Below, piece after piece: positions 1-46,548 of a stretch of 46,548 nucleotides of DNA (its first letter is position 1; each line of letters begins with the position of its first letter). The position numbers and the translations under genes are program-made. Location of the stretch: positions 1 to 46,548 of the IMG/VR virus record IMGVR_UViG_3300031951_000297. One strand, given 5' to 3'. Origin of the DNA: a virus. The notes below the pieces were generated by a model that had not been told where the DNA came from, made no database searches, and worked only from the letters and a program-made list of their open reading frames with translations.

Positions 1-1
1 G

Positions 2-3000
2 GATTTTAAGTGGGAATATTTCGCCGTCCACATCACAGACTACAACAAAGAAGAAAATACAATCTTCTATGATAATAAAATTCACCATCTAAATGAACAC
101 TTAGAAGTTGTAGGTGAAGTTAATAATGGTAGTGAATGTGTTCTAAGACGCTATCTATCTGATATAAAAGATAGACGTAAACTTTGCTTTAACAAAATGA
201 AGCAATACAACGTCGAAATATCAGAGCAAATAACCCATATAGATGAATCCAATAAAGTCGAAAGGCTCGAGGAGGGCTTCAAATATTTGGTTCATATAAA
301 TCCCCCACAAGAAGAAACCAAATACGATAACCCCTTAATATGTTACAATAAGAAAGGCGAAATCAAAAAAATCAATGGTAGTTTCAATAACCTAATTGAT
401 TTCTTCTTTGAGGGTGGTTTAGATATATGGAAAAGATCAGGTATTTTCCTTGACCCATCTAAATTAAAGAGCTTTTGGTCCGATTCAACTGATTACCAAA
501 AGCTGCTATTCTTTTTTGGCTTCCCAGCTAAAAACTTATTATTTTCATTCCTAGATAAAAACGATGAAAATAATGAATACTTAGATCAGGATATACTAAA
601 AAATAGTAGCGAAATTGATTATGAAGAAATCATCCATTTAACATTTGTAATATTCAATGAGAATGTTAGACAATCAAAATTATTTGAATTCTACGAAAAG
701 AAAATCAAGAATAATGATATAGAGTTTCTTCAAAACCATAGTGATAAATTTGTTAAACATCTTAAACTAAAAATAGATGAAAATAAATTAGACTTCTTAG
801 TGCAAGAAGAATTCTCTTTTGATTCTAAAAAAGGTTTTGCTAATCTTAATACTCTATTCATAGATAACGGAATTGATTTATTTGTAGGTGAAGATAAGGT
901 TTTCTATAAACTATCCGCTATTGAACAATATATGATTCAAAGTGGCAAAAGATTATTTAAGGGCTTTGAAGAATATCCTGAACTGAAAAGTTTAACAATG
1001 GATATTGAAACTAAAGGTCTACCTGAATTCTCATACAGGAAAGATGCAGCCTTGCATCCTACAATGGGTATGATCTTTAAAATAGGTATGTATTGCAACA
1101 ATGGATATGAGAAAGTACTAAACGCAACGAATCAGGAAGAAGAATTAGAAATAATAGAGGAATTCTTTAGGATAACAATGGAGTTAAATCCAGACTTATT
1201 CTTGACATATAACGGCGAAGGCTTTGACTTTCCATTTATAGTTAAAAGATACGAAATATTAAAGAAATTATCAGATGAATATGAAACTTTTAATGCTATT
1301 AGGGATTTAATAAAAGATTATTATAAAAACCCTGAAGAAATTTATATTTCAAAAAATAATCTCTTTAACAGAAGAGAAGGTAATCTTAAAGTAGGTGGTA
1401 ATAGTGAAACTTACACACAGACAAGCATATTAGGTATTAATATGTGTGATACAATGTTTGCTGTAAAAAGAGCTTCCGCTATCAATAAATCTATCCCGAA
1501 CTTTAAATTGAAAGATAACATTAAGTTTGCTAAATTAGCTAAACCTAATCGTGTTTATGTTGAAGGAAATAAAATTGGCGATATTGAAAATTCTACTGCT
1601 CCATTCTATCTGAATGTTGAAAACGGTGATTGGTTTAAATACCAAAAGGAAATTGCTTTTGAAAAAGGTATATATTCTTTTGATAAAGTAAAAAGGAAAT
1701 CATTACAAACACAAGTATACGACAATGAGAACACATTATATCTTTGGGATGAAGAATATGATAAGATGTTTATGGATTCTTGTGTGAACACCTTAAAATT
1801 CACACCTGATGATGTAGAAGGCTTCTTTAAAACTGTATATGAGAAGTTTAAGAATTACGATAGACTGTGCTTTAGAATTGATGAATTTGTAGGTAAATGG
1901 TTAGAAAAGGAAGATAAAGTTAAATATGATTTTTTATATAATGAATTAAAAAAATTAAGAACTAATTTAACTAATATCTCACTGTTCTATCCTGATAAAG
2001 ATCTATCAAAATATATTAAAACTACTGGTGAAGATATTATCAGAAGATATTTGATAGATGATTTATGGGAAACGAATAAGTTAGATGAATTTTACAGTCA
2101 AGCTACTTTTTTGATTTCTAAGTGGTTGCCTACTTCATATCAAAGGGCTGCAACTATGGGTGGTGCTTCTGTATGGAAATTGCTTTTATCCGCATATTCT
2201 TACCAATATGGTTTAGGTATACCTAATTACGATGAACCAAAAGAATTTACTGGAGGACTTGTAGCAATGATTTCAGCGGGATATCACGGTAAGTCTTTTA
2301 AAGCCGACTTTTCTTCCCTTTATCCAGCTGAATTTTACGTGCATGTTAATTCGCCTAAAATTGACTTGTACGGGGTTTATAAGCTCTTTATGTATTACGG
2401 CTGGTCTACTAGGATAAAGTACAAGCAGCTGATGAATGAGCATAAAGAGAAGGGAGAATTGAGCCTAAGTAAGAAGTTTGAAGTACGTCAGTTACCTATC
2501 AAAATTCTTATCAACAGTTTTTATGGTATGATGGGTGCAGCTGGTGTAACACCATTTGCTGATTTGGTTGTAGCGCAAGGTATTACTTGTAATGGAAGAC
2601 AACATTTGAGGCATCTTATTAAATGGTTTGCTGAAAAGGGATATGTTGCTACTATTGCTCACACTGACGGTGTTTTCTTTTCAATTAACGATGTTGATTT
2701 GGAATACAAGTACACTGGTAGAGGTATAAATTGGTTGGTAACTAAAGGAAAAGAATATGTAGGCATTGCGGCACACGTTGCTGAATATAATGATTCTTTC
2801 ATGAAGGGTATTATGGGTTTAGATATTGATGAAATTGTTGAATCAGTTATTAACTTTTCAAAAGGTAATTACATTTACTTAAAAGAAGTTAAAGACAAGA
2901 AGACTGGTGAGGTGACAAATAAAATTGAAGTTATTGGAGGAGCTATCATTAAGAAGACTCAATCTGAATATATCACTGAATTTGTAGATAAAGAGGTTAT

Positions 3001-3880
3001 TAAGTTAATGCAAAACAAACCCTTGGAATTTATAAATGCTTATTGGGATTATATTAAGAAGATTGAAGAACAAAAAATTAATGTGAAGCTTATTGCATCT
3101 AAGGCTAAAATTAAAAAGACAAAAGCAGAATACTTGCAACATATTAAGGGGACTAATAAAAATGGTGCTCCACTGAATAGGCAAGTGCATATGGAATTAT
3201 TGATTAATAACGATTTGGATATAGAACTTGGTGATGTAGTATATTATGTTAATAGCGGTAAATCCAAGGACGATAAAGACAGTTTGAGTCCTGCTACTAC
3301 ATTTGCTACTTGTGAATTAGGTGAATTGGATTTGAAGCAAATTAACAATGTGATTAAAACAAGGAATCCTGAATACATTAAAACATTTCTATTAGGTATT
3401 CATAATAGAGGTTTATTAACTGTTAATCAGAAGGTGTTGGACGGCGATATTTATGCAATTTTGGATGATATTGATAAGTGGAAAAATATCAAAACCAAAA
3501 TTAGGAACTTGAAAAAAGGTGTGTTCGTGGATTTTATTAAGGTTGAATATGTGATTAACTGTTCTATTATTGATAGTTTCTCTGATTCACAAACAGTCAA
3601 CTATAACACTGATCTTTATATCAATAAGTTCAATTCGGCTGTACACCCACTTTTCGTATGTTTTAAACCAGAGATTAGAGAAAAGCTTATGATTAACTCA
3701 TACGAAGATAGGCCCTTTATTTTAGAGCAAGATTTGACTTTGATTAATAGCATACCATTCGAGAACCAAGCTAAAAATCAAGCTACTTATGAAGAAGTAA
3801 TGGTTGTTACACCTGAAGAAATGGAGTATTGGAATTTAGTAGAAACTAATCCCGAAGACTTTGTTATAGAGCGTAAATAA
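2..3880 (+). CDS. 43: Family B DNA polymerase, T4 gp43-like, 5' end outside window
   Basis: Replicative DNA polymerase with 3'-5' proofreading. The frame is open from base 2 with no stop before the first internal ATG (197), so the true start lies left of the window; at least 1292 residues are visible against about 900 in T4. Numbering from ATG 197: exonuclease motif I MDIETKG near 268, exonuclease motif II YNGEGFDFPF near 338, polymerase motif A DFSSLYP near 703, motif B KILINSFYG near 768, motif C AHTDG near 820. Motif C has His where most members have the first Asp of DTDS; the second, metal-binding Asp is kept. Motifs A and B are only about 65 residues apart, closer than in T4. About 265 residues before the exonuclease domain are not recognised. 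The gene ends in a bidirectional terminator. Confidence 0.93.
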   Translation, partial: DFKWEYFAVHITDYNKEENTIFYDNKIHHLNEHLEVVGEVNNGSECVLRRYLSDIKDRRKLCFNKMKQYNVEISEQITHIDESNKVERLEEGFKYLVHINPPQEETKYDNPLICYNKKGEIKKINGSFNNLIDFFFEGGLDIWKRSGIFLDPSKLKSFWSDSTDYQKLLFFFGFPAKNLLFSFLDKNDENNEYLDQDILKNSSEIDYEEIIHLTFVIFNENVRQSKLFEFYEKKIKNNDIEFLQNHSDKFVKHLKLKIDENKLDFLVQEEFSFDSKKGFANLNTLFIDNGIDLFVGEDKVFYKLSAIEQYMIQSGKRLFKGFEEYPELKSLTMDIETKGLPEFSYRKDAALHPTMGMIFKIGMYCNNGYEKVLNATNQEEELEIIEEFFRITMELNPDLFLTYNGEGFDFPFIVKRYEILKKLSDEYETFNAIRDLIKDYYKNPEEIYISKNNLFNRREGNLKVGGNSETYTQTSILGINMCDTMFAVKRASAINKSIPNFKLKDNIKFAKLAKPNRVYVEGNKIGDIENSTAPFYLNVENGDWFKYQKEIAFEKGIYSFDKVKRKSLQTQVYDNENTLYLWDEEYDKMFMDSCVNTLKFTPDDVEGFFKTVYEKFKNYDRLCFRIDEFVGKWLEKEDKVKYDFLYNELKKLRTNLTNISLFYPDKDLSKYIKTTGEDIIRRYLIDDLWETNKLDEFYSQATFLISKWLPTSYQRAATMGGASVWKLLLSAYSYQYGLGIPNYDEPKEFTGGLVAMISAGYHGKSFKADFSSLYPAEFYVHVNSPKIDLYGVYKLFMYYGWSTRIKYKQLMNEHKEKGELSLSKKFEVRQLPIKILINSFYGMMGAAGVTPFADLVVAQGITCNGRQHLRHLIKWFAEKGYVATIAHTDGVFFSINDVDLEYKYTGRGINWLVTKGKEYVGIAAHVAEYNDSFMKGIMGLDIDEIVESVINFSKGNYIYLKEVKDKKTGEVTNKIEVIGGAIIKKTQSEYITEFVDKEVIKLMQNKPLEFINAYWDYIKKIEEQKINVKLIASKAKIKKTKAEYLQHIKGTNKNGAPLNRQVHMELLINNDLDIELGDVVYYVNSGKSKDDKDSLSPATTFATCELGELDLKQINNVIKTRNPEYIKTFLLGIHNRGLLTVNQKVLDGDIYAILDDIDKWKNIKTKIRNLKKGVFVDFIKVEYVINCSIIDSFSDSQTVNYNTDLYINKFNSAVHPLFVCFKPEIREKLMINSYEDRPFILEQDLTLINSIPFENQAKNQATYEEVMVVTPEEMEYWNLVETNPEDFVIERK
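22..31 (-). repeat. Dispersed motif KTGGACGGCG, site 1
   Basis: Antisense inside the polymerase gene; encodes A-V-H. Confidence 0.85.
3437..3446 (+). repeat. Dispersed motif KTGGACGGCG, site 2
   Basis: Sense in the polymerase gene; encodes L-D-G-D. Confidence 0.85.
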
Positions 3881-3882
3881 TG

Positions 3883-3917
3883 AAAAAGCGGTTGATTCAT
3901 TTCAACCGCTTTTTTTT
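3883..3917. terminator. Bidirectional rho-independent terminator
   Basis: Stem AGCGGTTGA (3887-3895) pairs with TCAACCGCT (3902-3910) around a 6-nt loop. A-run before and T-run after, so it can work on both strands. It separates the convergent polymerase gene and the metalloprotease gene, whose stop codon lies in the T-run. Confidence 0.9.
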
Positions 3918-4293
3918 ATTCCTCGTATATTTTTCTATTTATATATCCGTATTTCTTTACAAGTTCGCCTGCCTTAGCATTTGCTTCATTTTCTATATCT
4001 CCACCTACATCTTTAATTTCGCCGTCCAACTCCCTATCCTCATACTGCTTATAGTGAACTAACTCATGTGCTAAACTTCTCATTATATCAGCTAATAATC
4101 TATTCTTACCATAAACCATTATAATAGGCTTAAATCCAGAATTCTTATCAAAGCTAAAATTAGCAAATGTTTTTAACCCATCCTTGTTATTCTTAATAAC
4201 AATACTAGGATATTTTTTTAAGGATAATTCCTTATAGCAAAATTCGCAAAAATTAATTAACGTCTGCTTTCTATGTTTTCCTAAAAAACTCAT
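3916..4293 (-). CDS. Small zinc metalloprotease-like protein (HExxH)
   Basis: A 125-residue protein with HELVH at residues 76-80, the zinc-binding and catalytic motif of gluzincin-type peptidases. A downstream helix with Glu near 102-105 (DIENEANAKA) is a candidate third ligand. Small proteins of this kind (SprT-like or minigluzincin) are common in large phages, where the substrate is generally unknown. No signal peptide or membrane segment is visible, so it is probably cytoplasmic. The gene converges on the polymerase gene and is divergent from the phosphatase gene. It carries one copy of the dispersed KTGGACGGCG motif, encoding L-D-G-E. Family assignment is from the motif only. Confidence 0.75.
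   Translation of the reverse strand: MSFLGKHRKQTLINFCEFCYKELSLKKYPSIVIKNNKDGLKTFANFSFDKNSGFKPIIMVYGKNRLLADIMRSLAHELVHYKQYEDRELDGEIKDVGGDIENEANAKAGELVKKYGYINRKIYEE
4020..4029 (-). repeat. Dispersed motif KTGGACGGCG, site 3
   Basis: Sense in the metalloprotease gene; encodes L-D-G-E. Confidence 0.85.
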
Positions 4294-7680: not shown

Positions 7681-8856
7681 TTATCCGTCACAAGACAAGC
7701 AAGATAGATCAGTTGCTTTGGCTGCTATATCTCCTCTTAATACTGATTCTGTTCTCATGTAATAAAGAGTTTTTACACCTTGCCTCCAAGCTTCTAGGTG
7801 GACGGCGTTAATGAATTTTGGATCCGCTTGTGCAGGAAATGCTAAATTCAATGACACCGCTTGATCTATATATTGTTGTCTTACTCCAGCTTGTTTAACT
7901 AAGTCCAATTGATTAATTTCCTTGAAAGTTTTAAACACATCTTTAACTGTATATGCTTTTGTTTCAAAATCCTCCTTAGAAATTTCAGAAACCTTTGTTA
8001 ATTTGCCATCGAGATAACACCATTCATCTAAGAAATCTAATCCCTGAACTGAACCAGCATCTTGTAATATTTGGTCCCAAACTTGCTTAGTGTTATAACC
8101 AATATGATCCAAAACCTTTTCTAATTCATTGTTCTTTCTAATAAACGTTCCTTTTAAGGATTGTTCGGTAAACAAATTAGAAGCCCACGGTTCAATTCCA
8201 GCACTAACGTTTCCGCTTAGCTTAGAATTAGAAACTGTTGGTGCAATAGCTCTAAGATGGGTATTTCTATAACCACTCTCTTTACACCATAATGGTTCTC
8301 CATATTCTGTTGCTAAATCTCTACTTGCCTTTTCTGATTCAATTTTTAATTGGGAGAATATTTTACGGGTTTCAAATTGTGCCCTCAATCCCTCAAAAGG
8401 TAATCCTCTTTGTTGGAGGTAGGTATGCCAACCTAAAGTATTATGTATAACGTATTTAACACCATTATTTGAACTAGTAAAATAATTATGATGTTCATCT
8501 ACTGTTAAATCCGAATATTCAATATCAATATTTTCAGGTTGCCAAATTTCAACAATGGTGTTTAAATTATTATCTTGACTAACCATTACATTACCAACAC
8601 TTAATTCATCTGCTCTAACATAATCAAGTGAACCATCTTTCATTATAGTTAAGGTTGGATGCCATAATGAAGTATAAATAATACTACCACAATCTAATTT
8701 AATTGCTATCTGATCTTTAACTTCAACAATGGGTTTATGTGTTTCTAATATTTCCCTATAACATTTTTTTCTTTTATTTATGTCATAAGATAACACAAAA
8801 TCACCGCATTTAGCATTTTCAATTGCTATTTCTTTTTTATTTATTTTTATATTCAT
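7681..8856 (-). CDS. nrdA: Split intein C-half fused to C-terminal half of ribonucleotide reductase large subunit
   Basis: Residues 1-139 are the C-terminal part of an intein: GDFVLSYD (18-25), block B TSLWHP (62-67), block F-like VDEHHNYFTSSN (119-130) and the terminal splice site VIHN followed by Thr140. Residues 140-391 are the second half of the class I reductase alpha chain. They begin TLGWHTYLQ and include AIAPT-SNS, GIEP, the radical-transfer YYMRTESVLRG and the C-terminal redox pair CLSC. After protein trans-splicing with the product of 9905-11068 this gives a complete enzyme that makes dNDPs. All visible functional residues are kept, so the gene looks alive rather than broken. One KTGGACGGCG copy lies at 7798. 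Confidence 0.9.
   Translation of the reverse strand: MNIKINKKEIAIENAKCGDFVLSYDINKRKKCYREILETHKPIVEVKDQIAIKLDCGSIIYTSLWHPTLTIMKDGSLDYVRADELSVGNVMVSQDNNLNTIVEIWQPENIDIEYSDLTVDEHHNYFTSSNNGVKYVIHNTLGWHTYLQQRGLPFEGLRAQFETRKIFSQLKIESEKASRDLATEYGEPLWCKESGYRNTHLRAIAPTVSNSKLSGNVSAGIEPWASNLFTEQSLKGTFIRKNNELEKVLDHIGYNTKQVWDQILQDAGSVQGLDFLDEWCYLDGKLTKVSEISKEDFETKAYTVKDVFKTFKEINQLDLVKQAGVRQQYIDQAVSLNLAFPAQADPKFINAVHLEAWRQGVKTLYYMRTESVLRGDIAAKATDLSCLSCDG
7798..7807 (+). repeat. Dispersed motif KTGGACGGCG, site 4
   Basis: Antisense in the nrdA C-terminal half; encodes N-A-V-H. Confidence 0.85.
8440..8856 (-). other. Intein C-terminal fragment (139 residues)
   Basis: Encodes the part from just before GDxVLS to the terminal His-Asn. 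It includes block B (TSLWHP), which in ordinary split inteins sits on the N-half. The +1 extein residue is Thr. Confidence 0.85.
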
Positions 8857-8858
8857 AA

Positions 8859-9893: not shown

Positions 9894-9904
9894 TTCAACT
9901 TGAA

Positions 9905-11068
9905 TTAATCTATTTCTATTGTTTTTATCAGTGTAGATACTTTTATTTTTTCTCCGTTTAATTCAATGAAATCTTCAAGATTATAATTAATTCCATCAAT
10001 TTCAACTGAATCTATCACTTCAATTTTAGATCCTTTTGATACACAACCTAGACCCAAAGCGCGGCCCTTCTCGGCTGATCTAACAGCGTTCTCAAAGCCT
10101 TTCATATTCTTTGCTTTCTGAATAAACTCTTCCAGTACGCCGTCCAAGAACCAAGTAGCTGTATAAATTAAATCAGTGTCTTTCCATTCATCATATTTTG
10201 CCAAATTAAGAGAACTTAGGCAACACACAAAAGAATGTTGTTCATCGGTATGTAAAGCAATCTCTGAACAAATATTTGTCATGTGTACCTTCAACCCATT
10301 CTTTTTATACATTTCAGGATTACTTTTATTAACATTACCCTTAAACATAATATAAGGCTCACCTGTTGCTTTTCTCTTTTGTAACAATTTACCCCACTTC
10401 CTTCTTGCCTCTACGTCACCTTCTTCTAATTTACGCATAAAGCTGTCGCTAATGACGGCGCATTGATGTAAATTCAAAGACTGTCTATTAACATCTCCTT
10501 TTGGTTCTCTAATTTCCAACCATTCCTCAAAATCTGGGTGATCAATTTTGATGTTAACAGAAGCAGCACCTCTTCTAACAGCACCTTGATTCGTAGCTAA
10601 AATAGTAGAATCATAAATCTTACAAAATGGTACAACGCCATCTGAAGTGCCATTGTTGGTAATTTTAGCACCAGCAGGTCTAATCATATTGATACCAATA
10701 CCTACACCCCCACCATGTTTAGCTAGCATCATTAATTCAAGGTTCTTTGAACCTATCTCGTAGATACTATCGCCTACATCAATACCAAAACAACTGATAG
10801 GTAAACCTCTATCTGTACCAGTGTTAGCTAATACAGGTGTCGCTAAGTTTAACCAACCTCTCCAAATATAATCGAAGAATTTAGTTGCTAAATGTGGTTT
10901 GTTCAAACGTTTGGCAACAGTTGTAGATACGCGCCAATAAGCGTCTTTTGGTTTTTCACCTTGTAGAAGGTATTCTTTAGAAATGGTTTTTACATAGACT
11001 TCGGTATTACCCCATTCAGGGAAGTCAACTCCAACTTCCCAACCGAACTCTGCTCCATGATTTATCAT
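9905..11068 (-). CDS. nrdA: N-terminal half of ribonucleotide reductase large subunit fused to intein N-fragment
   Basis: Residues 1-341 are the first half of a class I (NrdA-type) reductase alpha chain: GLPISCFG (disulfide cysteine), KHGGGVGI, the active-site MTNICSEI and CCLSSLNLA, and RSAEKGRALGLG at the junction. Cys342 begins the intein block A (CVSKGSKIEV); only 46 intein residues follow before the stop. No N-terminal ATP-cone is present, so dATP control through that domain is not expected. The remainder of the enzyme is encoded at 7681-8856 and must be joined by trans-splicing. The upstream neighbour is nrdB, 63 bases away. Confidence 0.92.
   Translation of the reverse strand: MINHGAEFGWEVGVDFPEWGNTEVYVKTISKEYLLQGEKPKDAYWRVSTTVAKRLNKPHLATKFFDYIWRGWLNLATPVLANTGTDRGLPISCFGIDVGDSIYEIGSKNLELMMLAKHGGGVGIGINMIRPAGAKITNNGTSDGVVPFCKIYDSTILATNQGAVRRGAASVNIKIDHPDFEEWLEIREPKGDVNRQSLNLHQCAVISDSFMRKLEEGDVEARRKWGKLLQKRKATGEPYIMFKGNVNKSNPEMYKKNGLKVHMTNICSEIALHTDEQHSFVCCLSSLNLAKYDEWKDTDLIYTATWFLDGVLEEFIQKAKNMKGFENAVRSAEKGRALGLGCVSKGSKIEVIDSVEIDGINYNLEDFIELNGEKIKVSTLIKTIEID
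9908..10045 (-). other. Intein N-terminal fragment (46 residues)
   Basis: Starts at Cys (TGT, 10043-10045) right after ALGLG and stops before any block B. It is much shorter than canonical split intein N-halves (about 90-120 residues), as in atypically split inteins. Confidence 0.8.
10138..10147 (-). repeat. Dispersed motif KTGGACGGCG, site 5
   Basis: Sense in the nrdA N-terminal half, 93 bases from the intein junction; encodes L-D-G-V. Confidence 0.85.
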
Positions 11069-11131
11069 ATTAAAATATATTTTTAGTAAAAATAATTAGT
11101 ACAGTTAAAAATTAACGATGAAAAAAATTTA

Positions 11132-30444: not shown

Positions 30445-30467
30445 CAATATAATATATGAAAAAAATA

Positions 30468-30962: not shown

Positions 30963-30993
30963 AATTATTTCTTTATTTAGTTGTTTTTTATTT

Positions 30994-31001: not shown

Positions 31002-31015
31002 TATGTTTAAAAAAA

Positions 31016-32164: not shown

Positions 32165-35100
32165 TATTATTTGTTAATGTGAAACCAATATTGATTTGTT
32201 CTAAGGCCAATGTTGGTTGAATTAAAATCTTACCATTAAGCTCATTTGTTTCAAATGCTCTTGGGTTGTTATCTAATTCAATTCTGAAGTTAATGATACC
32301 TCTTTCGTTTCTGATATTAGATAATATCGGATTTACAAGGCTTTCAAACTGTCTACGAACTGTTTCATCATTTTGCTCGAATAACAAATTAACTGAAACG
32401 TCAGCCAACAACTGTCTGATATAGATCATCAATCTTCTAACATTGATTCTATCTAAAACTGTTTCTTCTATCTGAAGTGTTTTATTACCCCAAGTAGTAA
32501 CAATTCCAGCATCTCTCCACATACTATTGATACGTCCTGTGTACAAGTCATCTCTTTCGTCCTGTGTTGGATTTTTAACAACATCTACGAAGATACTACC
32601 ACCACGTCTTTTACCGCTAGGTGCGAACCAAACTCTTGAAATTCTATCATTCACGGCGTAGATGCGAGGCATATCAACACTTGCAGGAACATAAACGTAA
32701 GTATTGTTTTCCAAATCGTTATAGATACAATCATAAGCATATGTAGCGGCAAATGAAGTAGAATATAAACCATCTAATCTATCAGCCAAGAATTTAGCAC
32801 TGTAAGGAACGCCGTCCACATCCCTAGAAGGAGTATCAGCAATATAGAAAGCATCACAACGAACTTCCTCCAACATTTCAATCATTTCTTCAACCAAATT
32901 AGAGTTATCAAAAGTATTGATATTAGGAGTAACAACTAAGTTATATTTAACTGCTTCTGGGTTAGCTATCGCTCTAATACCTTTTAGGTAAGCATAGTAA
33001 TCAGAATTAATAACAGTTGAAACTTCGCCGTCGAAATCTTCTAAAACATAAGTATCAAAAGCGCTAGAAGCCAATCCTAAAATACCGTTAGTTCCATTTA
33101 CCACATATTGATCTCCATTACTTCTGTTACCAGTAGTCAATCTGTGAATATCCCATCCATCAAAGCCACCGTAGAAAGCCAAAGTAAACTTCCTAGCATT
33201 TAACTTAGCATATTGAGTACCTTCCAAATCAGCATCATTTCTGAATTCAGCGTTACCAACTTGGAAAGACAATGAACCTACACCGTCAACAGAAGCAGTT
33301 GTAGCATCAACGTCAAGGTGGAAACCATCCGTTGTACCTGTAAATGAAAGTACACCTGAACTTGGTTGACCGTGCCAATCAAATAAATCTTGATCGTAAC
33401 CATCATTACTATTTAAACCCAAGAATTCATAACGTACTTTATCGGTAGTTTCATAATTGGTTTTGTATTGAATAGTAGGTGCAACCGCGCAATCACCGTA
33501 ATCTACAACAGGGTATCCTTCGTAACCAGCAGGGAAAGCATCATAAACACAAGTTGCAGCTACATCTACACTTATATACATTGATTGTTGTGGATAAATA
33601 TCGTTAAGAGCTTTACCACCAATCAATCTTGCAATATAATTATTGCTCTGAACATCCAAAGAACAGTTAGCAAATTGCTCCAATATTACAGGGTTCTTAT
33701 CTGTATCGTTATAACTTCTTACCAATACATCAAACAATCTTCTATCAGGACGAATGTTTGTGATACTAATTTTAATATATCTATTAGAAGAATCACCATC
33801 GCCTAATGTTAAGAACTTAAACAATCTAACAACTTTATTACCACGTAATTCAGATACAATATATGGGGTTTCTGCACCACGATATTCTTGCTTGTAATTC
33901 CATAAAGTAGTGTTATGGCAAATTGTAGGCTTGATGCAGTGGATTTTATTCAAAGCCACCATGTTATCAAACATTTTCTGATACAATTCAGAAATGAACA
34001 ATGGAGAATCACTCTCACAGCAATTTGCTCTTACACCAAAAACTTTATTGATATAATTTTTCTTTCTTGTATCCAATGATACAATATAAGAAAATTCAGC
34101 ACCGCTAGTATCAGTTCCAGTTAATCTGAAATCATCATATGGCTTAATCATTTGGCCAGCAACTAATGGCTCAATTAAAATATTAGTGTTCTTAACTCTA
34201 AACTCTAACTCTTCATTTCCATTATATGAACCAACACTTCTTAAACCACAAACAATCTGATTTTCGAATTCAGCAAGAGCAATTGCAGTTAATTCAGTTG
34301 CGCTACCACTTAATTGAATGGTAACAATACCAGAAGGAATCTGAATTTCAGTGGTGCTGCTTCCTGATTGGAATACAGGAGTATTAATTACAGTTGTACC
34401 AGTAACAATGGTATAACCAGTACCGTTAATTCCATTGCAATCGTATTCTACTAAATTAGAACCTAATTCGCAAATTTTGTATAGAGTACCGTTTAAAATG
34501 TCGCCGTTAGGTAAAGTAATTGTACCATTTTGAATGGTGATGCTTTCATCGGCATTATGTGTTATTGTACCACCTTTAATCACTATCAAACCAGCGCTAA
34601 CAGGTTGTACTTCACTTGAATTTTGATCGACAATTACAATTGGAGTAGTAACTGTGATATTCAAAGTAGAGCCAATTGTTTGTGTTCCAACACCAAACTG
34701 AACAGAGCAAGTTTCAGTGATTGAACTTTGATAAACATATCCACCTTGGGTTGTTACACCAGTAAGACAAATATATTGATCATCTCTACCAGTAACAACA
34801 GCATCAAATCTGCTGCTATAAAAATTACCGTCACAGTTAGATACAAAACCATCTAAACTAGTGTAAGATAAAGTAGTACCAGTAGATACGTTATAACCAC
34901 CTAATGTATCAGCAGTTAAAAACCCTGCATCGAACATATCTTGTAAGGTGGAATTGCTAAAACTACCTGATGTTAATACACCATTAGCATATTGGATTTC
35001 GCCTGTGAAATTGCTAACAGCTCCTTCAGTAATAGTATTGGTATCAACACTACCACCAACGGTAATGCCCCAAAGATCACCTGCATCGTATCCAGATAAC

Positions 35101-35439: not shown

Positions 35440-36525
35440 TCATAAACTTTCGCCACATAGTCTTATTTGAACTGTTTTCGTAATTGATTTATTATAAACT
35501 AATTTTAAAATGTCACCTATATTAATATTAAAAGGTATAGTTACAGGAACATTATTCACAAAATAACTTACATTATTTCCAGTATTCGATTGATTATCAT
35601 ATGTTACATTGAAGTCAAAAGTCATTTTATATTCGATAGTTTTATTTGATTTTTTATTCAAATTAAAAACCAAACATTTACTACAAGAATCAAATCCCCC
35701 AACCGTTTCTATCCTACAAGGAGAATCATTTTTAGGCTCATCTCCTTTTATATCCATCTTAATTGAATTGAACGATCGTTTTATAACATAATCGTTTTCA
35801 CCTATTATGAATGCCTGCATATCTATCACATACATACTTCTATAATATCTTCTTTCTTCTATCTCTCTTTTATGGCTTTCCGATATATCATTTAGTTTAA
35901 TTTCCATATTATGTCCAAAGACATTAATAGTGGGTGTGGTATTTCTCTTAAATAAATTTAAAATCAATTCGTTAAACTTATTTATTTCCCGTAGACTATT
36001 GGAGAATAAATTAATTTTATATTGTAAATCGACATAAGTGGGTTCAGAAACCTCAACGTATTCATATATTGTTTGCCCATTAATTACTTTGGGGATACGA
36101 TATAATGGGAATGTAATATTTACTGGTAATACACCATTTATAGTATTAAGGTAAGTACCCTTTTTTGCAGGGCTTTCCTTTGTTATAGTTATAATTGGTA
36201 ATGGATGTTGACTTTCGCCGTCCAAATTACCCCAAGTCTGGATTAATTCAGATAATCTTTGATTAGTGAATAAATAAACAGGTACTTTTTTACCATCTAA
36301 TTCGAAATTAAAATTATCTACCCAAGTTTTAAATGAATTATCCAAATCAGTTATGTCTATTTTTTTAGGGACAAACAATTGATCTTTTACAACCTCTTGG
36401 GTTATAATTTCTGTAACAAGTTCATTATTTTCAACTAATTGTTGCTTAGGCACATTAGGCAAGTCAACCGCCTTATCTGCATAATTACTAGGCTTCTTTA
36501 TTATTATTGACTTAGGTGGTTGCAT
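35440..36525 (-). CDS. Probable connector or tail-completion protein
   Basis: 361 residues, not firmly recognised. Beginning after a disordered N terminus (1-60), it shows an alpha/beta domain with PLPIITITKE, GVLPVNITFPLYRIP, YVDLQYKINLFSNSLREINK and a closing RYYRSMYVIDMQAFII. This plan resembles tail terminator or neck-type proteins upstream of sheath genes. The C-terminal part (from about 270) has three Cys, KSNKTIEYKMTFDFNVTYDN and a short beta domain. Placement between the DNRLRE-like protein and sheath genes, 1 base from the former, supports a virion role. The specific role is inference. Confidence 0.6.
   Translation of the reverse strand: MQPPKSIIIKKPSNYADKAVDLPNVPKQQLVENNELVTEIITQEVVKDQLFVPKKIDITDLDNSFKTWVDNFNFELDGKKVPVYLFTNQRLSELIQTWGNLDGESQHPLPIITITKESPAKKGTYLNTINGVLPVNITFPLYRIPKVINGQTIYEYVEVSEPTYVDLQYKINLFSNSLREINKFNELILNLFKRNTTPTINVFGHNMEIKLNDISESHKREIEERRYYRSMYVIDMQAFIIGENDYVIKRSFNSIKMDIKGDEPKNDSPCRIETVGGFDSCSKCLVFNLNKKSNKTIEYKMTFDFNVTYDNQSNTGNNVSYFVNNVPVTIPFNINIGDILKLVYNKSITKTVQIRLCGESL
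36216..36225 (-). repeat. Dispersed motif KTGGACGGCG, site 12
   Basis: Sense in the connector-like gene; encodes L-D-G-E. Confidence 0.85.
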
Positions 36526-37914
36526 TTAAAAGAATATTTGGTTTGTTATTACATTGAATTTAATTTTGTTTTCGTAAGTCTTAACTGTTTGTTTGTTTAC
36601 GACTTTAAAATCAATGATGTATGTTTGTGGTATCATCCAACTAGTATCCAGCAGAAACCAATTTTCACAGACACCTCTATTCACAGGCATCCAATCTATA
36701 ATAGTTACTTCATCATAATTACCTTCTTTTAAATACACTTTATAGAATACATTATCTACTGAAATTGATTTTGTGGGGTTGGACGGCGATTTTATATCTA
36801 CGAAAATTTTACGGACATCCCCTTGCTTAATAATCTCATCTCTCTGTATCCCCCTAAAAGAAAAATGGAAATTAGTTACAGGTACAGGTGTATTATAACC
36901 GAATCCATAATAATCACTAGCAGGTAATATATTGAATTTAAAGGATTGATTTGGTAGACTTTTTCCATTTATAGAAATTGCCGTCCAAACATCCTTCCAA
37001 GCATAACATTTATCTATATTTGCAGAATCAATTTCGAACTCAACGTAGTAAATACCTAAATCCTGACAAGTACCTGTTAAAGTGAATTGCAAAGCATTAG
37101 TTTCATCGTATATATTAACTATTGGGTTTTCATCTAATTTTACAGGTTCGCCGTCCACCGTCGCATACAAATATAACCTATTCAACTTATCTAAATAAAA
37201 CTTAGCCCTATCATCATAGATAGCATTAACATATTCAGTTTCTAAATAAGGCTCATAAAAAGTATTCGTTTCTTTACCAAAGAAAACAACATGATTCTCT
37301 GTATCATTTAATTCCCTCTCCAAATCATAATGGAAAGCTAAACCAAAACCATAGTTAGGAACATCATTCAAAATTAAATCATTCACTATATCTGTAACAT
37401 CCATCCTCAAATCTAAACTGTTACAATTAACCTCCTGACATAACAAATAAGTAGGTGTACTGTATAATGAATCAAACACGCCTTCTTCTGACCAAGTAGT
37501 ACCTGATTGAGCGTAAAACCAGTTGGACGGCGATTTATCTACCGTGCAATTTAATTCAGCAAAAGAAGTACACCCCTGCGCACAAGAATTACTAACCCCA
37601 CAACCTTCATCCCAAGGTTGATCCAATCTAAACAAACAGATGTTATAGCTATTAGGCATACAAGCATTAGCCTTCTGGGTAAAACCACTGTGCTTAAAAT
37701 TCAAATAATGTTTAACAGTAGTTAAATCACCTAATTCACAATTCAAAAATTGATTTTTCAATTCAATCACATCGAACTGAAACAAATACCTTGAAAAATT
37801 AGGATTACTTACTCCACCACCGTAAAATAAATCAACGATAGGTAAATTGCCATAATTAAATTCTGATTTATATGTTATAGTGTTATCCTTGGAAAAGTAG
37901 GTCCTTTTATACAT
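36526..37914 (-). CDS. Virion protein with DNRLRE/carbohydrate-binding-like domain
   Basis: 462 residues. The first 230 match the pattern of DNRLRE (disaggregatase-related) beta-sandwich domains. These are FQFDVIELKN, ICLFRLDQPWDEGCGVSNSC, NWFYAQSGTTWSEEGVFDS, LRMDVTDIVNDLI and NYGFGLAFHYDLE, then FFGKETNTFYEPYLETEY. Such domains bind carbohydrate or mediate adhesion at cell surfaces. The remaining 230 residues look like two further beta domains. It carries 13 Cys, unusual for this phage. It could be a neck whisker, fibre or host-binding protein. It is the first gene of the sheath-proximal cluster and has its own late-promoter-like element. It carries three exact and one near copy of the dispersed motif. 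Confidence 0.65.
   Translation of the reverse strand: MYKRTYFSKDNTITYKSEFNYGNLPIVDLFYGGGVSNPNFSRYLFQFDVIELKNQFLNCELGDLTTVKHYLNFKHSGFTQKANACMPNSYNICLFRLDQPWDEGCGVSNSCAQGCTSFAELNCTVDKSPSNWFYAQSGTTWSEEGVFDSLYSTPTYLLCQEVNCNSLDLRMDVTDIVNDLILNDVPNYGFGLAFHYDLERELNDTENHVVFFGKETNTFYEPYLETEYVNAIYDDRAKFYLDKLNRLYLYATVDGEPVKLDENPIVNIYDETNALQFTLTGTCQDLGIYYVEFEIDSANIDKCYAWKDVWTAISINGKSLPNQSFKFNILPASDYYGFGYNTPVPVTNFHFSFRGIQRDEIIKQGDVRKIFVDIKSPSNPTKSISVDNVFYKVYLKEGNYDEVTIIDWMPVNRGVCENWFLLDTSWMIPQTYIIDFKVVNKQTVKTYENKIKFNVITNQIFF
36779..36788 (+). repeat. Dispersed motif KTGGACGGCG, site 13
   Basis: Antisense in the DNRLRE-like gene; encodes S-P-S-N. Confidence 0.85.
37149..37158 (-). repeat. Dispersed motif KTGGACGGCG, site 14
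   Basis: Sense in the DNRLRE-like gene; encodes V-D-G-E. Confidence 0.85.
37523..37532 (+). repeat. Dispersed motif KTGGACGGCG, site 15
   Basis: Antisense in the DNRLRE-like gene; encodes S-P-S-N. Confidence 0.85.
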
Positions 37915-38014: not shown

Positions 38015-41000
38015 ATGATTTCATTCTTTAAAAAAGTAGATCGCACTGCGATACCTGACAATTCTGTAAATTTAGACGATGTTTTTAACGAAATTAAAAA
38101 CCCTGAATTCAAAAAACTAATCGAATTAGCTAGAAAAAGCGGCAAAAGTACGCCAACCAATTTCAACAGTGGAACTTATTATTTAGACTATGATGAATAT
38201 CATAAAATACTCAAATACGATTATATCGTAAAAGAGTTAAATGATATTATCGACAACACCTTATTAGATGTAGTATATTACTCTGAAAGATTATCTGCTC
38301 AAGACATTAAAAAATCCCTAACCAACTTAGGGGTTAAGTATTCCGATTGCGTAAAAATCGAGGACTTCTATTCATTCTTTGAATACAAGAATTATAATGT
38401 AGCTTTCATTTGCTTAGTCTGGGGCGGATTTGATACTATTAAACAAGAGAAGACAGGCCAAAAAGGTGAATTTAAAGTCACCATCAGAAACATGTATAAC
38501 TTTATTAAATCAGCAAAAACTCCAGTAGTTACTTGGAACGCTGACTTTGATAATAAAAGGTCACTTAAAAATATCAAAAGCCTTTCTGGATACATCTATA
38601 TGGATGTAGATGATTTCAGTGTTATCAGCCAAGCAGAGGTTCGTAGAATCTTAACAGATAATGCCTTAGACTTCGTAAAAGCTGTTTGGGATTCATTTGG
38701 CGGCAACGGTATCGGTTTCTTGGTTAAAGTAGATAACCTGACCGTAGACAATTTCAAATGGACATGGACATCTGTTGTTAAAAAGTTCGATGGAATCAAT
38801 ATCAAAATTGATAAGGCCACAAAAGATATTACCAGAATCAATGTTTTATCGTACGATGAAAATATATTCATCAGGGAAAACTGTAATAGTATTTTAGCAA
38901 TAGAAGAAAAGCCACAAGATCAACTTTCAATAAAAGTATCCCCGCTAACAGACGAGTTTAAAAATGATGTTTTAGAGCAAAGTGTATCTAACCTATACTT
39001 TGATGAATCTTTTTTTAATACTTATGAAGATAGATTAGCTTATAGATTTTACCAAGTGTTATTCTCAAAAACAAATCATATTGGGATAACATTAGATGAA
39101 ACCTTTGCTTTCCTATTAAAGTATGAGAAAGACTATCCGAACATTCTTAACAATAAGAAATATAGCCGAAACGAAATTTACAGTATTGGTAAGAACCAAT
39201 ATGATAGTTACGCCGATCAATTTGGTACAGTTACAGTAGAAACAAATCATCACCTTTCAAAGGATTATATTTTAGTAAACATTTACAAAGAATATTCTGG
39301 TGATGTTAAATTGAAGCTACACGACATATTAGAAAAAGCTATCTTAAAAGAAAGCAATGATATGCAAGCCGCTTTGGTTTATCTTATCTTAAACGCTAAG
39401 AGAACAGGTATCCTTATGAAGGATCTTAGTTCTTTTATTGAGAAAAAGTATGGTTACAATCCAGAGAATACTATTAAGATTAAGAAAATCTACACTAATT
39501 CAAAATATCCTTTTGGTATCGTAGCTAAATTGAAGCCAACTGTTATCCAAGAAAGAAGACAGAAGTTCATAGAGAAAGCAGAAGCAGAGAATAAAAAAGT
39601 AATCATATCTGAAAGCCTGAATTTTGCTGAACAAACAAAAATCGTAACAGAACTATTCAATAAGATTTTTGGTCAAACCAGACTTACAGATAAGAACATC
39701 ATATTCTTGGTAAAAACATATTTCAAGGAATGTAATTCCTTTGGGATTTCCCTTATAACTGCAAGAGAGTACTTAAATAGTAATGCTAACTTTCATTCTA
39801 TTGAACGGTACTCTAACCACTATGGAAATGATATATACGAAATGTATAAGGTGTTCTTTGGGTTGAGAATTATTACTTTAGTTGAAGATAAAAAAAAAAT
39901 TAATAATTTAAGTCAACTTAAAAACGATCAAAAACTAAGCGATATAAACCTATCGTTGGATGACAATACAATTTTGTGGGCTGATACAGGTATGGGTAAG
40001 ACTACTTGGGCCTGCACCGAAGTAGAAGGTAAAAAAATCATATTGGTTCCAACGATAGGTGCTCTTAAAAATATAGAACACAAATATAAAGCAGCTTCAT
40101 TCTATGAAACGAACAAAAATGTTTCAGAGAAAGATCAATTAATTGTATGCACATACTCTTCAGCTCCAACCCTATTCAAAACAATTAAGAGCTGGAAAGG
40201 TGGCTTGAAAGAGTATATTTTGATTGTCGACGAACAACATAATTTTGCAGTTTCATCTTCTAAAAATTATAGGAATAAAGAATTAAATTATGTTTTAGAT
40301 AACATTGATTCTTTTAAGAAGCGCATTTTTATGACAGGAACTTATTTTCCAGTTGAACACCCATCATTAAAAGAATTTAAAATTCATAGGGTTAAATGGG
40401 AAGATAAGAAAGTTAAGAATGCTACTGTGGTATTTTATGAAAATAAAATCAAAGCAATCGAAAGCCGTTTAGTCAGAGGTAAGAAAAATATCATTTATCT
40501 CCAAGACAAACGTATGGATAAAGAGTTAGGTAAGTTAATAACCCACCTTAAAAGTAATAATTGGGATAAAATCCATTTATTGAATTCCAACCAAAAGAAG
40601 GAGAACCATTTTAAGGATTTATTGACAACTGAATACCTACAAGAAGATGCTGAAATAATTATCACAACTTCAATCACAATTGAAGCTATCAACATTTTAA
40701 ATAAAGACGTTGAAACAATTCACTTCATGACATTTGAAAACCCTAGGCTGATGGAGCAGATGGTTAATAGAATGCGTGAAAAATTACCCAGCAACATTTT
40801 TATTTATAAGAAAATTAAAACAGATAAATTACAAATAGAAGAATCATTTAATGCTATTGCCAAACAAAAAGCAATAATATCTAATGCCGAATCTTTATTG
40901 AATTATTTGTCTAACCCAAAACAAAAGAAGATTAATAGCTACGATGAAGTTGCCGCTCAAAAGTTGTTTGCTAATCAAATTTTCGAGAACTCTTCTATTT

Positions 41001-42118
41001 TTAAGGTTAATGAAAATCTTAATGTTTGGGAAATAGATTATTTGTCTATTGCAAATAAAGTTTTCAATGAGGAAACAAAGCACTCTAAAAATAATTTTGA
41101 TTACTTCAAAAGTATTTTAAATGAATACGGTTGGGAATTCAATCCTGAACAGGTAGATCTTTTAAAGATGACCGCAAAAGATAAGAAGGTTATTAAAGAA
41201 GAAAAAGAAAAAAGATCAGCAGAAATGTTGGAATATTCCTTGGATGTGCTTAACTTTGTGTCTCAATCGGATATTGATTCATTGAAGAAAGAAGTAGATA
41301 ATAAAAACACATTTGATAATAAGAAGTATCCTGATATTGAATGGAATATTAGAATTAAGGTTCTTAAATTATCTAAATATATGTCTTTTAATGAATCTTG
41401 TAAGCTGGTTAATATCTTAATTTCTGAATACGATAATTCTGATATTAAGTTTAACAAAGCGATGAGGGAAGTAGCTGTTAAAATAGCTCGAGAAAGTGGA
41501 GTGTTCAATAATAATTTAGATTTTAATACTCCTTTTAGTAAAGCTATATTGAGGGATTATTTTAATATCAAGAAAAAGAATATTGTTCTTTCTAATCAAG
41601 ATGTTATTTCCTTATTCAATAAGCGTAAGAATCTTTTGGATGTGGTGGACGGCGAAATGGATGCCTTCAAAATTCTAAGAAAGTATTTTGAAATCAAATC
41701 TATTCTGCATAAAGGTGAAATAAAATTCAAGCTGGGTGGATTGAATGTTTCAAATGATGTATCTAAATTCACAGCCGAATTTTATGAATGGATTAAAGAA
41801 ATACATTCCGAGCAGAAGATTTTAACTTCAATTGAAATAGCAAATCAAATCAATCTTATTCGATCTAAATTGCCATTTCTTTCTAAGTTTAAATTGTCGA
41901 ACAAGCAAGCATTAGCTCTATTGGAGGATTACGTTACAATTAAAAAGACAACAAAAAAATCCGAAGGTAAAATAGTGACATCGTATAAGGTTATTGATTT
42001 GGAACCAAAGATGACAAAAGGCATTGAGGTTAAAATAAATCAAAAAATTATAATCAATAATTTAAACGAAATTCAAGAAATAGAAGAGTTCACTCAAAAA
42101 ATAACAGCTAATCAATAG
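38015..42118 (+). CDS. Primase-like (BT4734/VirE-N type) and superfamily 2 helicase fusion
   Basis: 1367 residues. Residues near 85-300 match the N-terminal domain found in Bacteroidetes VirE/BT4734-like primase proteins. They include SGYIYMDVDDF with a DxD pair near 196-198, VWDSFGGNGIGFLVKVD, and ITRINVLSYDENIFI. These are archaeo-eukaryotic primase-like signatures. Residues 650-930 are an SF2 helicase core: Walker A DTGMGKTT, the VPTIGAL motif Ia, DEQH Walker B, MTGT motif III, TTSITIEAINIL motif V and VNRMRE motif VI. The long C terminus is not recognised. It probably primes or restarts DNA synthesis. It has its own host-type promoter and is followed 52 bases later by a UvrD-like helicase. 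Domain calls are by eye. Confidence 0.75.
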   Translation: MISFFKKVDRTAIPDNSVNLDDVFNEIKNPEFKKLIELARKSGKSTPTNFNSGTYYLDYDEYHKILKYDYIVKELNDIIDNTLLDVVYYSERLSAQDIKKSLTNLGVKYSDCVKIEDFYSFFEYKNYNVAFICLVWGGFDTIKQEKTGQKGEFKVTIRNMYNFIKSAKTPVVTWNADFDNKRSLKNIKSLSGYIYMDVDDFSVISQAEVRRILTDNALDFVKAVWDSFGGNGIGFLVKVDNLTVDNFKWTWTSVVKKFDGINIKIDKATKDITRINVLSYDENIFIRENCNSILAIEEKPQDQLSIKVSPLTDEFKNDVLEQSVSNLYFDESFFNTYEDRLAYRFYQVLFSKTNHIGITLDETFAFLLKYEKDYPNILNNKKYSRNEIYSIGKNQYDSYADQFGTVTVETNHHLSKDYILVNIYKEYSGDVKLKLHDILEKAILKESNDMQAALVYLILNAKRTGILMKDLSSFIEKKYGYNPENTIKIKKIYTNSKYPFGIVAKLKPTVIQERRQKFIEKAEAENKKVIISESLNFAEQTKIVTELFNKIFGQTRLTDKNIIFLVKTYFKECNSFGISLITAREYLNSNANFHSIERYSNHYGNDIYEMYKVFFGLRIITLVEDKKKINNLSQLKNDQKLSDINLSLDDNTILWADTGMGKTTWACTEVEGKKIILVPTIGALKNIEHKYKAASFYETNKNVSEKDQLIVCTYSSAPTLFKTIKSWKGGLKEYILIVDEQHNFAVSSSKNYRNKELNYVLDNIDSFKKRIFMTGTYFPVEHPSLKEFKIHRVKWEDKKVKNATVVFYENKIKAIESRLVRGKKNIIYLQDKRMDKELGKLITHLKSNNWDKIHLLNSNQKKENHFKDLLTTEYLQEDAEIIITTSITIEAINILNKDVETIHFMTFENPRLMEQMVNRMREKLPSNIFIYKKIKTDKLQIEESFNAIAKQKAIISNAESLLNYLSNPKQKKINSYDEVAAQKLFANQIFENSSIFKVNENLNVWEIDYLSIANKVFNEETKHSKNNFDYFKSILNEYGWEFNPEQVDLLKMTAKDKKVIKEEKEKRSAEMLEYSLDVLNFVSQSDIDSLKKEVDNKNTFDNKKYPDIEWNIRIKVLKLSKYMSFNESCKLVNILISEYDNSDIKFNKAMREVAVKIARESGVFNNNLDFNTPFSKAILRDYFNIKKKNIVLSNQDVISLFNKRKNLLDVVDGEMDAFKILRKYFEIKSILHKGEIKFKLGGLNVSNDVSKFTAEFYEWIKEIHSEQKILTSIEIANQINLIRSKLPFLSKFKLSNKQALALLEDYVTIKKTTKKSEGKIVTSYKVIDLEPKMTKGIEVKINQKIIINNLNEIQEIEEFTQKITANQ
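41645..41654 (+). repeat. Dispersed motif KTGGACGGCG, site 16
   Basis: Sense in the primase-helicase gene; encodes V-D-G-E. Confidence 0.85.
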
Positions 42119-42170: not shown

Positions 42171-43649
42171 ATGGATTTCAAACCTAGTATATACCAAGAA
42201 CAAATTTTTGAAACTTGGCAAAACACAGACAAGAATATTTTGGTTGAAGCTGTTGCGGGTAGTGGTAAAACAACTACCATCATTGAATTGATGAAGCGAA
42301 CAGATGCAAGCAAAATTGGAATGTATGTGGCGTTCAACAAACACATTGTTGAGGAAATTAAAGCCAAGAATCCGCCGTCCAACTTCACAATAGGAACCTT
42401 ACATAGCAGAGGTTATCAATCTATTGCAATGAATCATAGAGGTTCATTGAAATTAGATGATTGGAAAACATTCAAATTGCTTAAACCATTAACAGCTAAT
42501 TGGAAGAACGTACCGAAGAAAAAGATTAATGCTAAAATATACAACTTAACAGAGTTCTACAACTATTATAGGTTAACACATCAAAAAGACTTGTCTAATT
42601 TTGATCAGATGATTAAAAAATATGACCTGTCTTTGGATGCAACAGATATTCCTAAAATACAGGAGATGCTTAGTCACATCGACCTGTATAATTCAAGGCA
42701 TAATTTCCATAAAGAATTTATGATTGATTTTGTGGATATGATGTATCTACCAGTTCATTTGAATTTGTTTATCAAAACGGTAGATGTTCTGATGGTAGAT
42801 GAAGCACAGGATCTTTCCGCCGTCCAACACGAATTCATCAATAAAATGATGAAAAAAGACAGTAGAATAATCGTTGTAGGTGATCCACATCAGGCTATAT
42901 ATGGTTTTTCTGGTAGCGATGTAGATAGCTGGGATAAATTTAAAAGCTTGGAAAATAGCGTCCAATTACCTCTATCTTATTGTTACAGGTGCGGCAAGAA
43001 AATCGTGGAACTATCTAATAAAATATACGACATCATGGAATCCCCAGATTGGATGCACGATGGAGAAGTAGTTGAAGAAGGTAATTTGTTGTATGTTAAA
43101 ACAGGTGATTTCATCCTGTGTAGAAATACTAAACCCCTAGTAGAATTATATTTCAATTTGTTAACCTTAGAAAAACCTTGTTACATTAAAGGGAGTGATA
43201 TAGGTAAGGGATTAGTTAAAGTGCTGGATGAATATAAGAATCTTTCAAGTAAAGATACTGTAACAGCAATGCACAAAGAACTAAATTCAATCTATAAATT
43301 GCTAATATCTAATGGCATACAACAACCACAAAAACATCAAAAGTATCTCAACTACGCTGAAAAGATTGAAATTATAACATTGTTTTCAGAGAAGTATGAA
43401 AAAACTATTGAAGTGATTAAAGCCATTGAAAATATCTTTAAAGAAGATGGTGAAGGTATTATTCTATCGACTATACATAAAGCAAAAGGATTAGAAAGCG
43501 ATATTGTATATCTTTACTTACCTCACCTGCTTCCTTCTAAATATGCCAAGATGCCTTGGGAATTGCAACAAGAAGATAACCTTTATTATGTAGCAGTGAC
43601 CAGAGCAAAAAAGAAGCTGATAATAGTTAAAGAAGTATTTACATTATAA
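42171..43649 (+). CDS. Superfamily 1 DNA helicase, UvrD/Dda-like
   Basis: 492 residues. Motifs in order: Q-motif-like YQEQIF near 8, Walker A AVAGSGKTT (27-35), GTLHSRGYQ (Ia, near 75), DVLMVDEAQDLS (II, near 206), VVGDPHQAIYGFSGSD (III, near 235), LSYCYR (IV, near 265), STIHKAKGLE (V, near 432) and YYVAVTRAK (VI, near 475). The compact size fits Dda-type or short UvrD-type helicases that load on ssDNA, displace proteins and help start replication or recombination. It is read from the same direction as the primase-helicase gene and ends at a bidirectional terminator. Two KTGGACGGCG copies occur in it. Confidence 0.92.
   Translation: MDFKPSIYQEQIFETWQNTDKNILVEAVAGSGKTTTIIELMKRTDASKIGMYVAFNKHIVEEIKAKNPPSNFTIGTLHSRGYQSIAMNHRGSLKLDDWKTFKLLKPLTANWKNVPKKKINAKIYNLTEFYNYYRLTHQKDLSNFDQMIKKYDLSLDATDIPKIQEMLSHIDLYNSRHNFHKEFMIDFVDMMYLPVHLNLFIKTVDVLMVDEAQDLSAVQHEFINKMMKKDSRIIVVGDPHQAIYGFSGSDVDSWDKFKSLENSVQLPLSYCYRCGKKIVELSNKIYDIMESPDWMHDGEVVEEGNLLYVKTGDFILCRNTKPLVELYFNLLTLEKPCYIKGSDIGKGLVKVLDEYKNLSSKDTVTAMHKELNSIYKLLISNGIQQPQKHQKYLNYAEKIEIITLFSEKYEKTIEVIKAIENIFKEDGEGIILSTIHKAKGLESDIVYLYLPHLLPSKYAKMPWELQQEDNLYYVAVTRAKKKLIIVKEVFTL
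42373..42382 (-). repeat. Dispersed motif KTGGACGGCG, site 17
   Basis: Antisense in the UvrD-like gene; encodes P-P-S-N. Confidence 0.85.
42828..42837 (-). repeat. Dispersed motif KTGGACGGCG, site 18
   Basis: Antisense in the UvrD-like gene directly after DEAQD; encodes S-A-V-Q. Confidence 0.85.
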
Positions 43650-46231: not shown

Positions 46232-46240
46232 TTTTTTATC

Positions 46241-46260
46241 TATTTATATAAAGATAAATA
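46241..46260. promoter_or_regulatory. Divergent late-promoter-like elements
   Basis: Plus strand TATTTATA (46241-46248) ends 21 nt before the ATG at 46270; minus strand TATTTATC (46253-46260) ends 21 nt before the ATG at 46231. The spacing is symmetrical. Confidence 0.5.
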
Positions 46261-46269
46261 TAACTTAAT

Positions 46270-46548
46270 ATGCAAACATACTATAAATTAAATGATTTTT
46301 TAGAAGGGATGCGGAAGGATGTGGACGGCGAATTCTATTATGAAATAAAAAACGACGGAATTTATAAAATTGAATTCTCCCATGCAGGTAAAAAAGGAGG
46401 TAGCGTCTTTGAATATAAATTCTATCCAGAATTAAATAACAAATTTAAAGAAGTAGAAGCCTTAGAAATTTACGATATTGATAAAGGGACAGAATTATTT
46501 ATGGATTGGTTTTCAGAAAATAACCAAAATATAGAAATTATGACCAAA
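46270..46548 (+). CDS. Unknown protein, 3' end outside window
   Basis: The frame opens at ATG 46270 and runs to the window edge without a stop; 93 residues are visible. It starts MQTYYKLNDFLEGMRKDVDG, is mixed alpha/beta and acidic, and is not recognised. A TATTTATA element precedes it with the standard spacing, which supports the start. It contains one exact KTGGACGGCG copy reading V-D-G-E. It is divergent from the neck protein gene. Confidence 0.75.
   Translation, partial: MQTYYKLNDFLEGMRKDVDGEFYYEIKNDGIYKIEFSHAGKKGGSVFEYKFYPELNNKFKEVEALEIYDIDKGTELFMDWFSENNQNIEIMTK
46321..46330 (+). repeat. Dispersed motif KTGGACGGCG, site 19
   Basis: Sense in the partial gene at the right edge; encodes V-D-G-E. 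Confidence 0.85.

Follow-up and report, generated by a model that had tools for sequence, protein, structure and literature searches.

Short DNA words that are dispersed through a genome and held there by selection are rare, and Chi, the DNA uptake sequences (USS/DUS), KOPS and HIP1 have each pointed to basic DNA processes. The Chi word of Escherichia coli, GCTGGTGG, which is read by RecBCD and has equivalents in AddAB-type systems, is short, non-palindromic, dispersed, strongly over-represented and mostly intragenic. The USS/DUS of the Pasteurellaceae and Neisseriaceae are 9-12 nt long and lie dispersed within genes in both orientations, some of them as inverted pairs after genes, and the HIP1 word of the cyanobacteria (GCGATCGC) is highly iterated and spread through genes. 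Phage primase sites are dispersed on both strands, and one template strand is read: 5'-GTC-3' with a preceding G/T by T7 gp4, 5'-TTTGGTTA-3' and 5'-GTG-3' by NrS-1 PrimPol. Here we describe a word that shares features with Chi, USS/DUS, HIP1 and the primase sites, the 10-bp word KTGGACGGCG (K being G or T) in the virus record IMGVR_UViG_3300031951_000297 of IMG/VR, the whole 46,548-nt stretch of which is referred to below as the window.

The gene content of the window (family B DNA polymerase, UvsX-like recombinase, 5'-3' exonuclease, DnaB-like helicase, NrdA/NrdB and tail sheath) marks it as a 46.5-kb piece of a T4-like myovirus genome. KTGGACGGCG occurs in the window in 19 exact copies, 9 on the plus and 10 on the minus strand (Table 1), compared with 0.01 copies of the 9-mer core expected under an order-2 Markov model, and among over-represented 7- to 10-mers TGGACGGCG and its sub-words rank first. 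As a control the word was also searched in reversed form, with no occurrence in the window or in six word-bearing relatives, the first ones examined. Position 1 of the word is G or T in all 19 copies, and the base following the word is A in 13, T in 4 and G in 2. All copies are intragenic, 10 sense and 9 antisense; the open reading frames (ORFs) around the sites at 22 and 46321 can be seen in full only in the longer contig G006. Unlike the palindromic octamer HIP1, TGGACGGCG is not palindromic.

A first-pass annotation made from the letters alone had reported these counts, the intragenic position of the copies and their rarity by chance, all of which were borne out by our recount. The five one-mismatch copies it listed also exist, but two of its coordinates were off by one and a sixth copy was missed; the full set begins at 15061 (the one missed), 19993, 24399 and 30724 (the two corrected), 33026 and 36979. 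It had further described the encoded peptides as unrelated, which holds, V/L-D-G-x in sense frame 0 being the commonest (27 of the 60 coding sites in G006).

The word continues at the same density beyond the window. Contig G006 (136 kb), whose DNA polymerase is 100% identical to that of the window, carries 66 copies, 60 of them coding. Contigs with polymerases of 83% (G003) and 66% (G004) identity hold 33 copies in 72 kb and 47 copies in 66 kb, respectively; a further 42 copies were counted in 45 kb of G020, which is 96-98% identical to G004, 26 in 40 kb of G005 and 13 in 34 kb of G001. Within this clade the density is ~0.4-0.9 per kb on both strands, with near equal strand counts (38/28 in G006, 16/17 in G003, 27/20 in G004, 21/21 in G020) and no strand bias along the replication axis, unlike a polar motif of the KOPS/AIMS type. 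No copy was found in five contigs of up to 231 kb with polymerases 39-40% identical or in the isolated Flavobacterium phages immuto and MaF61, and the word-free contigs G009, G010 and G011, immuto and a 45-kb stretch of MaF61 had no comparable word of their own. Three two-site scans of viral contigs, which were of limited sensitivity, returned this clade and L070 as the only word-rich low-GC contigs. L070 is an 8.3-kb contig with 10 words, for which a placement was attempted and no tie to the word-bearing clade was found. A literature search turned up nothing on KTGGACGGCG.

The word is maintained by selection on the DNA itself, independently of coding. Codon-preserving shuffles gave 0.18 coding copies (maximum 2) in G006 against 60 observed, 0.095 against 30 in G003 and 0.37 against 44 in G004, an enrichment of several hundredfold, so the observed counts were never reached and protein-level selection cannot explain the word, as had been argued from the window. 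Of the 27 sites alignable between G006 and G003, whose coding sequences are 76% identical at the nucleotide level, 23 were intact compared with 10-12% of control 10-mers; of the 21 between G006 and G004 (61% identity), 13 were intact compared with 2% of controls. Where the peptide was unchanged, every site was still a word (19/19 in G003 and 8/8 in G004, vs. 25% and 9% of control windows). Sites are thus retained in relatives at well over the neutral rate, and together with the shuffles this strongly supports the proposal of the first-pass annotation that the word is a recognition site for a DNA-binding activity. None of the outcomes that this annotation had named as refuting (absence of the word outside the window, similar counts in shuffled controls, or loss of sites at the neutral rate) was observed. 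Since 28 of 41 alignable G004 sites are non-words in G006, sites have also been gained or lost by lineage. Genes that have homologues in word-free relatives carry the word as densely (0.45/kb) as clade-only genes do (0.475/kb); the words therefore originated by substitution within old genes.

KTGGACGGCG forms the centre of a longer, strand-asymmetric element: a G/T-rich stretch of ~20 nt lies 5' of the word, and AAAT follows it. The core is strict, with 107 exact cores vs. 33 one-mismatch neighbours (15 expected) and the greatest tolerance at the last G, and the base preceding it is G or T in 146 of 150 cases. After correction for gene strand and codon position, G was enriched 2.7-fold in the five bases 5' of the word and ~1.5-fold out to -20, with T mildly enriched further out; on the 3' side the short A/T-rich AAAT was followed by no clear signal. 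The one-sided flank, which the first-pass annotation had missed, was seen separately in G006, G003 and G004 and points towards something that is read on single-stranded template DNA. Sites on the same strand were spaced somewhat more regularly than expected at random in G006 and G003, and weakly so in G004.

We tentatively favour the reading that the word is the template recognition site of a phage primase, which we regard as a real possibility though short of probable. T7 primase reads 5'-GTC-3' and makes pppACCA on 5'-TGGTC-3' (PMC9198812), and NrSPol, a phage enzyme of the archaeo-eukaryotic primase (AEP) family, reads motifs in the template and initiates at the first upstream base (PMC8718748). 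The strict G/T at position 0 and the G/T-rich 5' stretch would fit a template that is copied into an A/C-rich primer; at phage primase sites copying takes in bases at the core or 5' of it, as proposed here for the word. The genome encodes a primase candidate and has sites on both strands, and the G/T template preference lies 5' of the core as for T7 and NrSPol. A primase site would be needed on both strands, would lack polarity, would be selected at the level of single sites and would be restricted to phages with the enzyme.

The candidate reader is a 1367-aa protein that combines an AEP/PrimPol-type primase with a superfamily 2 (SF2) helicase (Table 1) and, as in the described phage systems, is encoded beside other replication genes. 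Its PF08800 match is to the BT4734-like N domain, and BT4734-like proteins belong to the AEP family (PMC5862659). All word-rich clade contigs that span the locus have a PF08800-type domain, and none of the word-free relatives searched has one. Comparison with four word-free relatives revealed no homologue of either the 1367-aa protein or the neighbouring UvrD-like helicase. The phage immuto encodes a primase of the DnaG type (Zn ribbon and Toprim); no such primase was detected in G006. In a two-sequence alignment YIYMDVDDF fits AEP motif I (hhhDhD/E) and K-I/V-DKATKD-x-TRIN fits motif III (hD/E).

We infer that the word may be read by this protein and may prime replication. The AEP domain would bind the word where the lagging-strand template is exposed, the primer would begin at the word or just 5' of it, and the G/T-rich flank would be copied into an A/C-rich primer, so that words every 2-5 kb per strand would set the Okazaki start points. 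The genome would then have been rewritten, mostly where protein-level constraint is absent, to carry start sites every few kb per strand. A clade that has no apparent DnaG-type primase, uses an AEP primase-helicase with a strict template word of 9-10 nt and has its Okazaki starts hard-coded in the genome is a plausible but still speculative picture.

Several observations weigh against the primase site. Known primases mostly read 3-8 nt, and a strict core of 9-10 nt, far longer than GTC or GTG and accompanied by a G/T preference over ~20 nt, is unusual. The flank preference is graded, which is not that of a strict A/C-only primer template, and even spacing was not seen in G005 and G020. In the two-sequence alignment AEP motif II (sxH) was not evident at SFGGxGxGFLV; the structure model of the primase N-terminus, also built from two aligned sequences, reached a pLDDT of 39, and no solved structure of a relative was found for this part. 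Because the word is unusually long and the structure model scored so low, our confidence is held back. The word and the primase are linked in one clade, which therefore amounts to a single evolutionary contrast, and the primase is not the only clade-only gene. L070 also bears the word, and no primase has been assigned to it.

The main rival, which we consider doubtful, is a Chi-like site, where a helicase-nuclease (a host enzyme of the AddAB/RecBCD type or one encoded by the phage) would change its mode while degrading from a DNA end, so that the phage DNA is protected and a 3' tail is left for the UvsX-like recombinase, with the G/T-rich 5' flank as a preferred loading stretch. Protection against attack on either end would be well served by a strict non-palindromic word that recurs every 1-2 kb in both orientations; the flank is on the recombinase-loading side, and RecA prefers DNA resembling TGG repeats (PMC3763553). 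Selection for Chi in a phage genome has also been named as one possible route of RecBCD evasion (PMC9836394), and the word-bearing phage encodes UvsX-like, SbcC/SbcD-like and exonuclease proteins. Yet the word differs from Chi in its one-sided G/T flank, its lack of orientation bias and its occurrence in a phage clade. Under the same treatment no such flank was found at 67 E. coli Chi sites, which is weak evidence as a flank is not a defining property of Chi. A Chi-like site would moreover predict a word-rich host and other word-rich phages of that host, whereas the pair scans, limited in sensitivity, recovered one clade and L070, and word-free relatives with similar recombination genes manage without the word.

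Somewhat less likely again is that the word binds another phage-encoded factor, be it a nucleoid-organising, segregation or copy-control protein or a self-recognition protein through which phage DNA escapes a phage nuclease. The confinement of the word to one phage clade with many clade-only genes lacking an assigned function would agree with this, as would the strict core and the long asymmetric footprint, but no such protein was identified, and a G/T-rich flank on one strand is not predicted by this explanation in itself.

It is very improbable that the word is an uptake-type sequence of a naturally competent host that has accumulated in its phage. Temperate phages of the Pasteurellaceae do accumulate uptake sequences, but in the same study large, probably lytic phages were poor in them (PMC6776037). 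The present word is dispersed, intragenic and found in both orientations, with inverted pairs after stop codons in L070 and G006; against this, it occurs in a large T4-like phage, one-mismatch forms are rare, and the position-specific purifying selection is stronger than an uptake drive needs. A pair scan of the same type for the Haemophilus uptake word returned many different contigs, while KTGGACGGCG returned one clade and L070. A target of sequence-specific DNA modification or an anti-restriction mark would suit a strict, non-palindromic word on both strands, but is scarcely credible given a core longer than the usual modification motifs, an unexplained flank and no methylase among the proteins scanned in a search that was not exhaustive.

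Other candidates were rejected: chance or codon usage by the shuffles of G006, which never exceeded 2 copies; a protein motif by words lying sense and antisense in several frames and being kept where synonymous change is free; a mobile repeat by the lack of likeness beyond the flank preference and the absence of words from the TnpB genes and from the ORF that interrupts nrdA; and a packaging or polar signal by the missing polarity and the scatter of the sites. From the list of candidates in the first-pass annotation a replication signal is favoured, as a primase template site, with the Chi-like site kept as main rival and packaging disfavoured.

Table 1. Copies of the word and genes bearing on its interpretation in the window.
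Feature	Position	Strand	Basis or remark
Word GTGGACGGCG, antisense in DNA polymerase gene	22..31	-	exact match
Word TTGGACGGCG, sense in DNA polymerase gene	3437..3446	+	exact match
Word TTGGACGGCG, sense in ORF 3916-4293	4020..4029	-	exact match
Word GTGGACGGCG, antisense in nrdA 3' part	7798..7807	+	exact match
Word TTGGACGGCG, sense in nrdA 5' part	10138..10147	-	exact match
Word TTGGACGGCG, sense in DnaB-like helicase gene	13446..13455	-	exact match
Word GTGGACGGCG, antisense in ORF 13573-14133	13877..13886	+	exact match
Word TTGGACGGCG, antisense in ORF 18245-23311	22407..22416	+	exact match
Word TTGGACGGCG, antisense in ORF 27504-29402	27717..27726	+	exact match
Word GTGGACGGCG, sense in ORF 29633-30355	29824..29833	-	exact match
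Word GTGGACGGCG, sense in tail sheath gene	32810..32819	-	exact match
Word TTGGACGGCG, sense in ORF 35440-36525	36216..36225	-	exact match
Word TTGGACGGCG, antisense in ORF 36526-37914	36779..36788	+	exact match
Word GTGGACGGCG, sense in ORF 36526-37914	37149..37158	-	exact match
Word TTGGACGGCG, antisense in ORF 36526-37914	37523..37532	+	exact match
Word GTGGACGGCG, sense in primase-helicase gene	41645..41654	+	exact match
Word TTGGACGGCG, antisense in UvrD-like helicase gene	42373..42382	-	exact match
Word TTGGACGGCG, antisense in UvrD-like helicase gene	42818..42827	-	exact match
Word GTGGACGGCG, sense in ORF cut by window end (G006 113228-113935)	46321..46330	+	exact match
UvsX/RecA-like recombinase	15134..16183	-	bears on Chi-like site
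Candidate word reader, 1367-aa AEP/PrimPol-type primase (residues 167-285) and SF2 helicase	38015..42118	+	PF08800 6e-11; PADLOC PrimPol 2e-12
UvrD-like superfamily 1 (SF1) helicase	42171..43649	+	adjoins primase-helicase

The host of the word-bearing phage is likely a member of the Bacteroidota, because the nearest matches of NrdB are in Flavobacterium and Cellulophaga phages and that of the terminase is in Flavobacterium phage immuto (25%). A PF08800 match was found in only one of 14 control genomes, a Bacteroides. A host search by word pattern in genome contigs gave, among the matches listed, high-GC chance occurrences. Promoter-like TAnnTTTG sequences are present in L070, and in the word-free relative G010 (91 kb) TACTTACCTTTG is iterated ~10 times, probably as a Bacteroidota-type promoter.

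Inverted word pairs stand directly after stop codons in L070 (61-110, 536-575, 4714-4750 and 5950-5997) and in G006 (7889-7945), where they can form hairpins and lack T tracts. A terminator role was rejected for the four pairs of L070, which are not flagged as terminators; one single word of L070 (1006) lies within a terminator-like stem. The word-free TnpB genes are located at 115985-117211 in G006 and at 59853-61665 in G003, the latter with an IS607-like partner. In the window nrdA is split (7681-11068) into a 3' part with an intein-like (Hint) domain and a 5' part with an intein-like stretch at its end; the intervening ORF (8859-9893), to which no family was assigned, is probably a homing element. 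Within the clade the nrdA/nrdB pair has been swapped for a distant one (25-28% identity; G004 29331-32752 vs. window 7681-12130). G014 and G006 are 99.98% identical over 20 kb including the terminase, next to a divergent, mosaic tail-fibre-like region. G006 also encodes a sigma-factor-like protein (25092-26318; phrog_351, 1e-12) for which no homologue was found in word-free relatives.

Whichever mechanism holds, the word is a marker by which contigs can be assigned to this phage clade. It is phage-borne, strict and polarised, is under measurable purifying selection at single sites and comes with a candidate enzyme. If it were Chi-like, it would offer a strong example from nature of a phage escaping end-degradation by carrying the signal itself, and if it is a primase site, the start sites of lagging-strand synthesis would be readable from the genome sequence.

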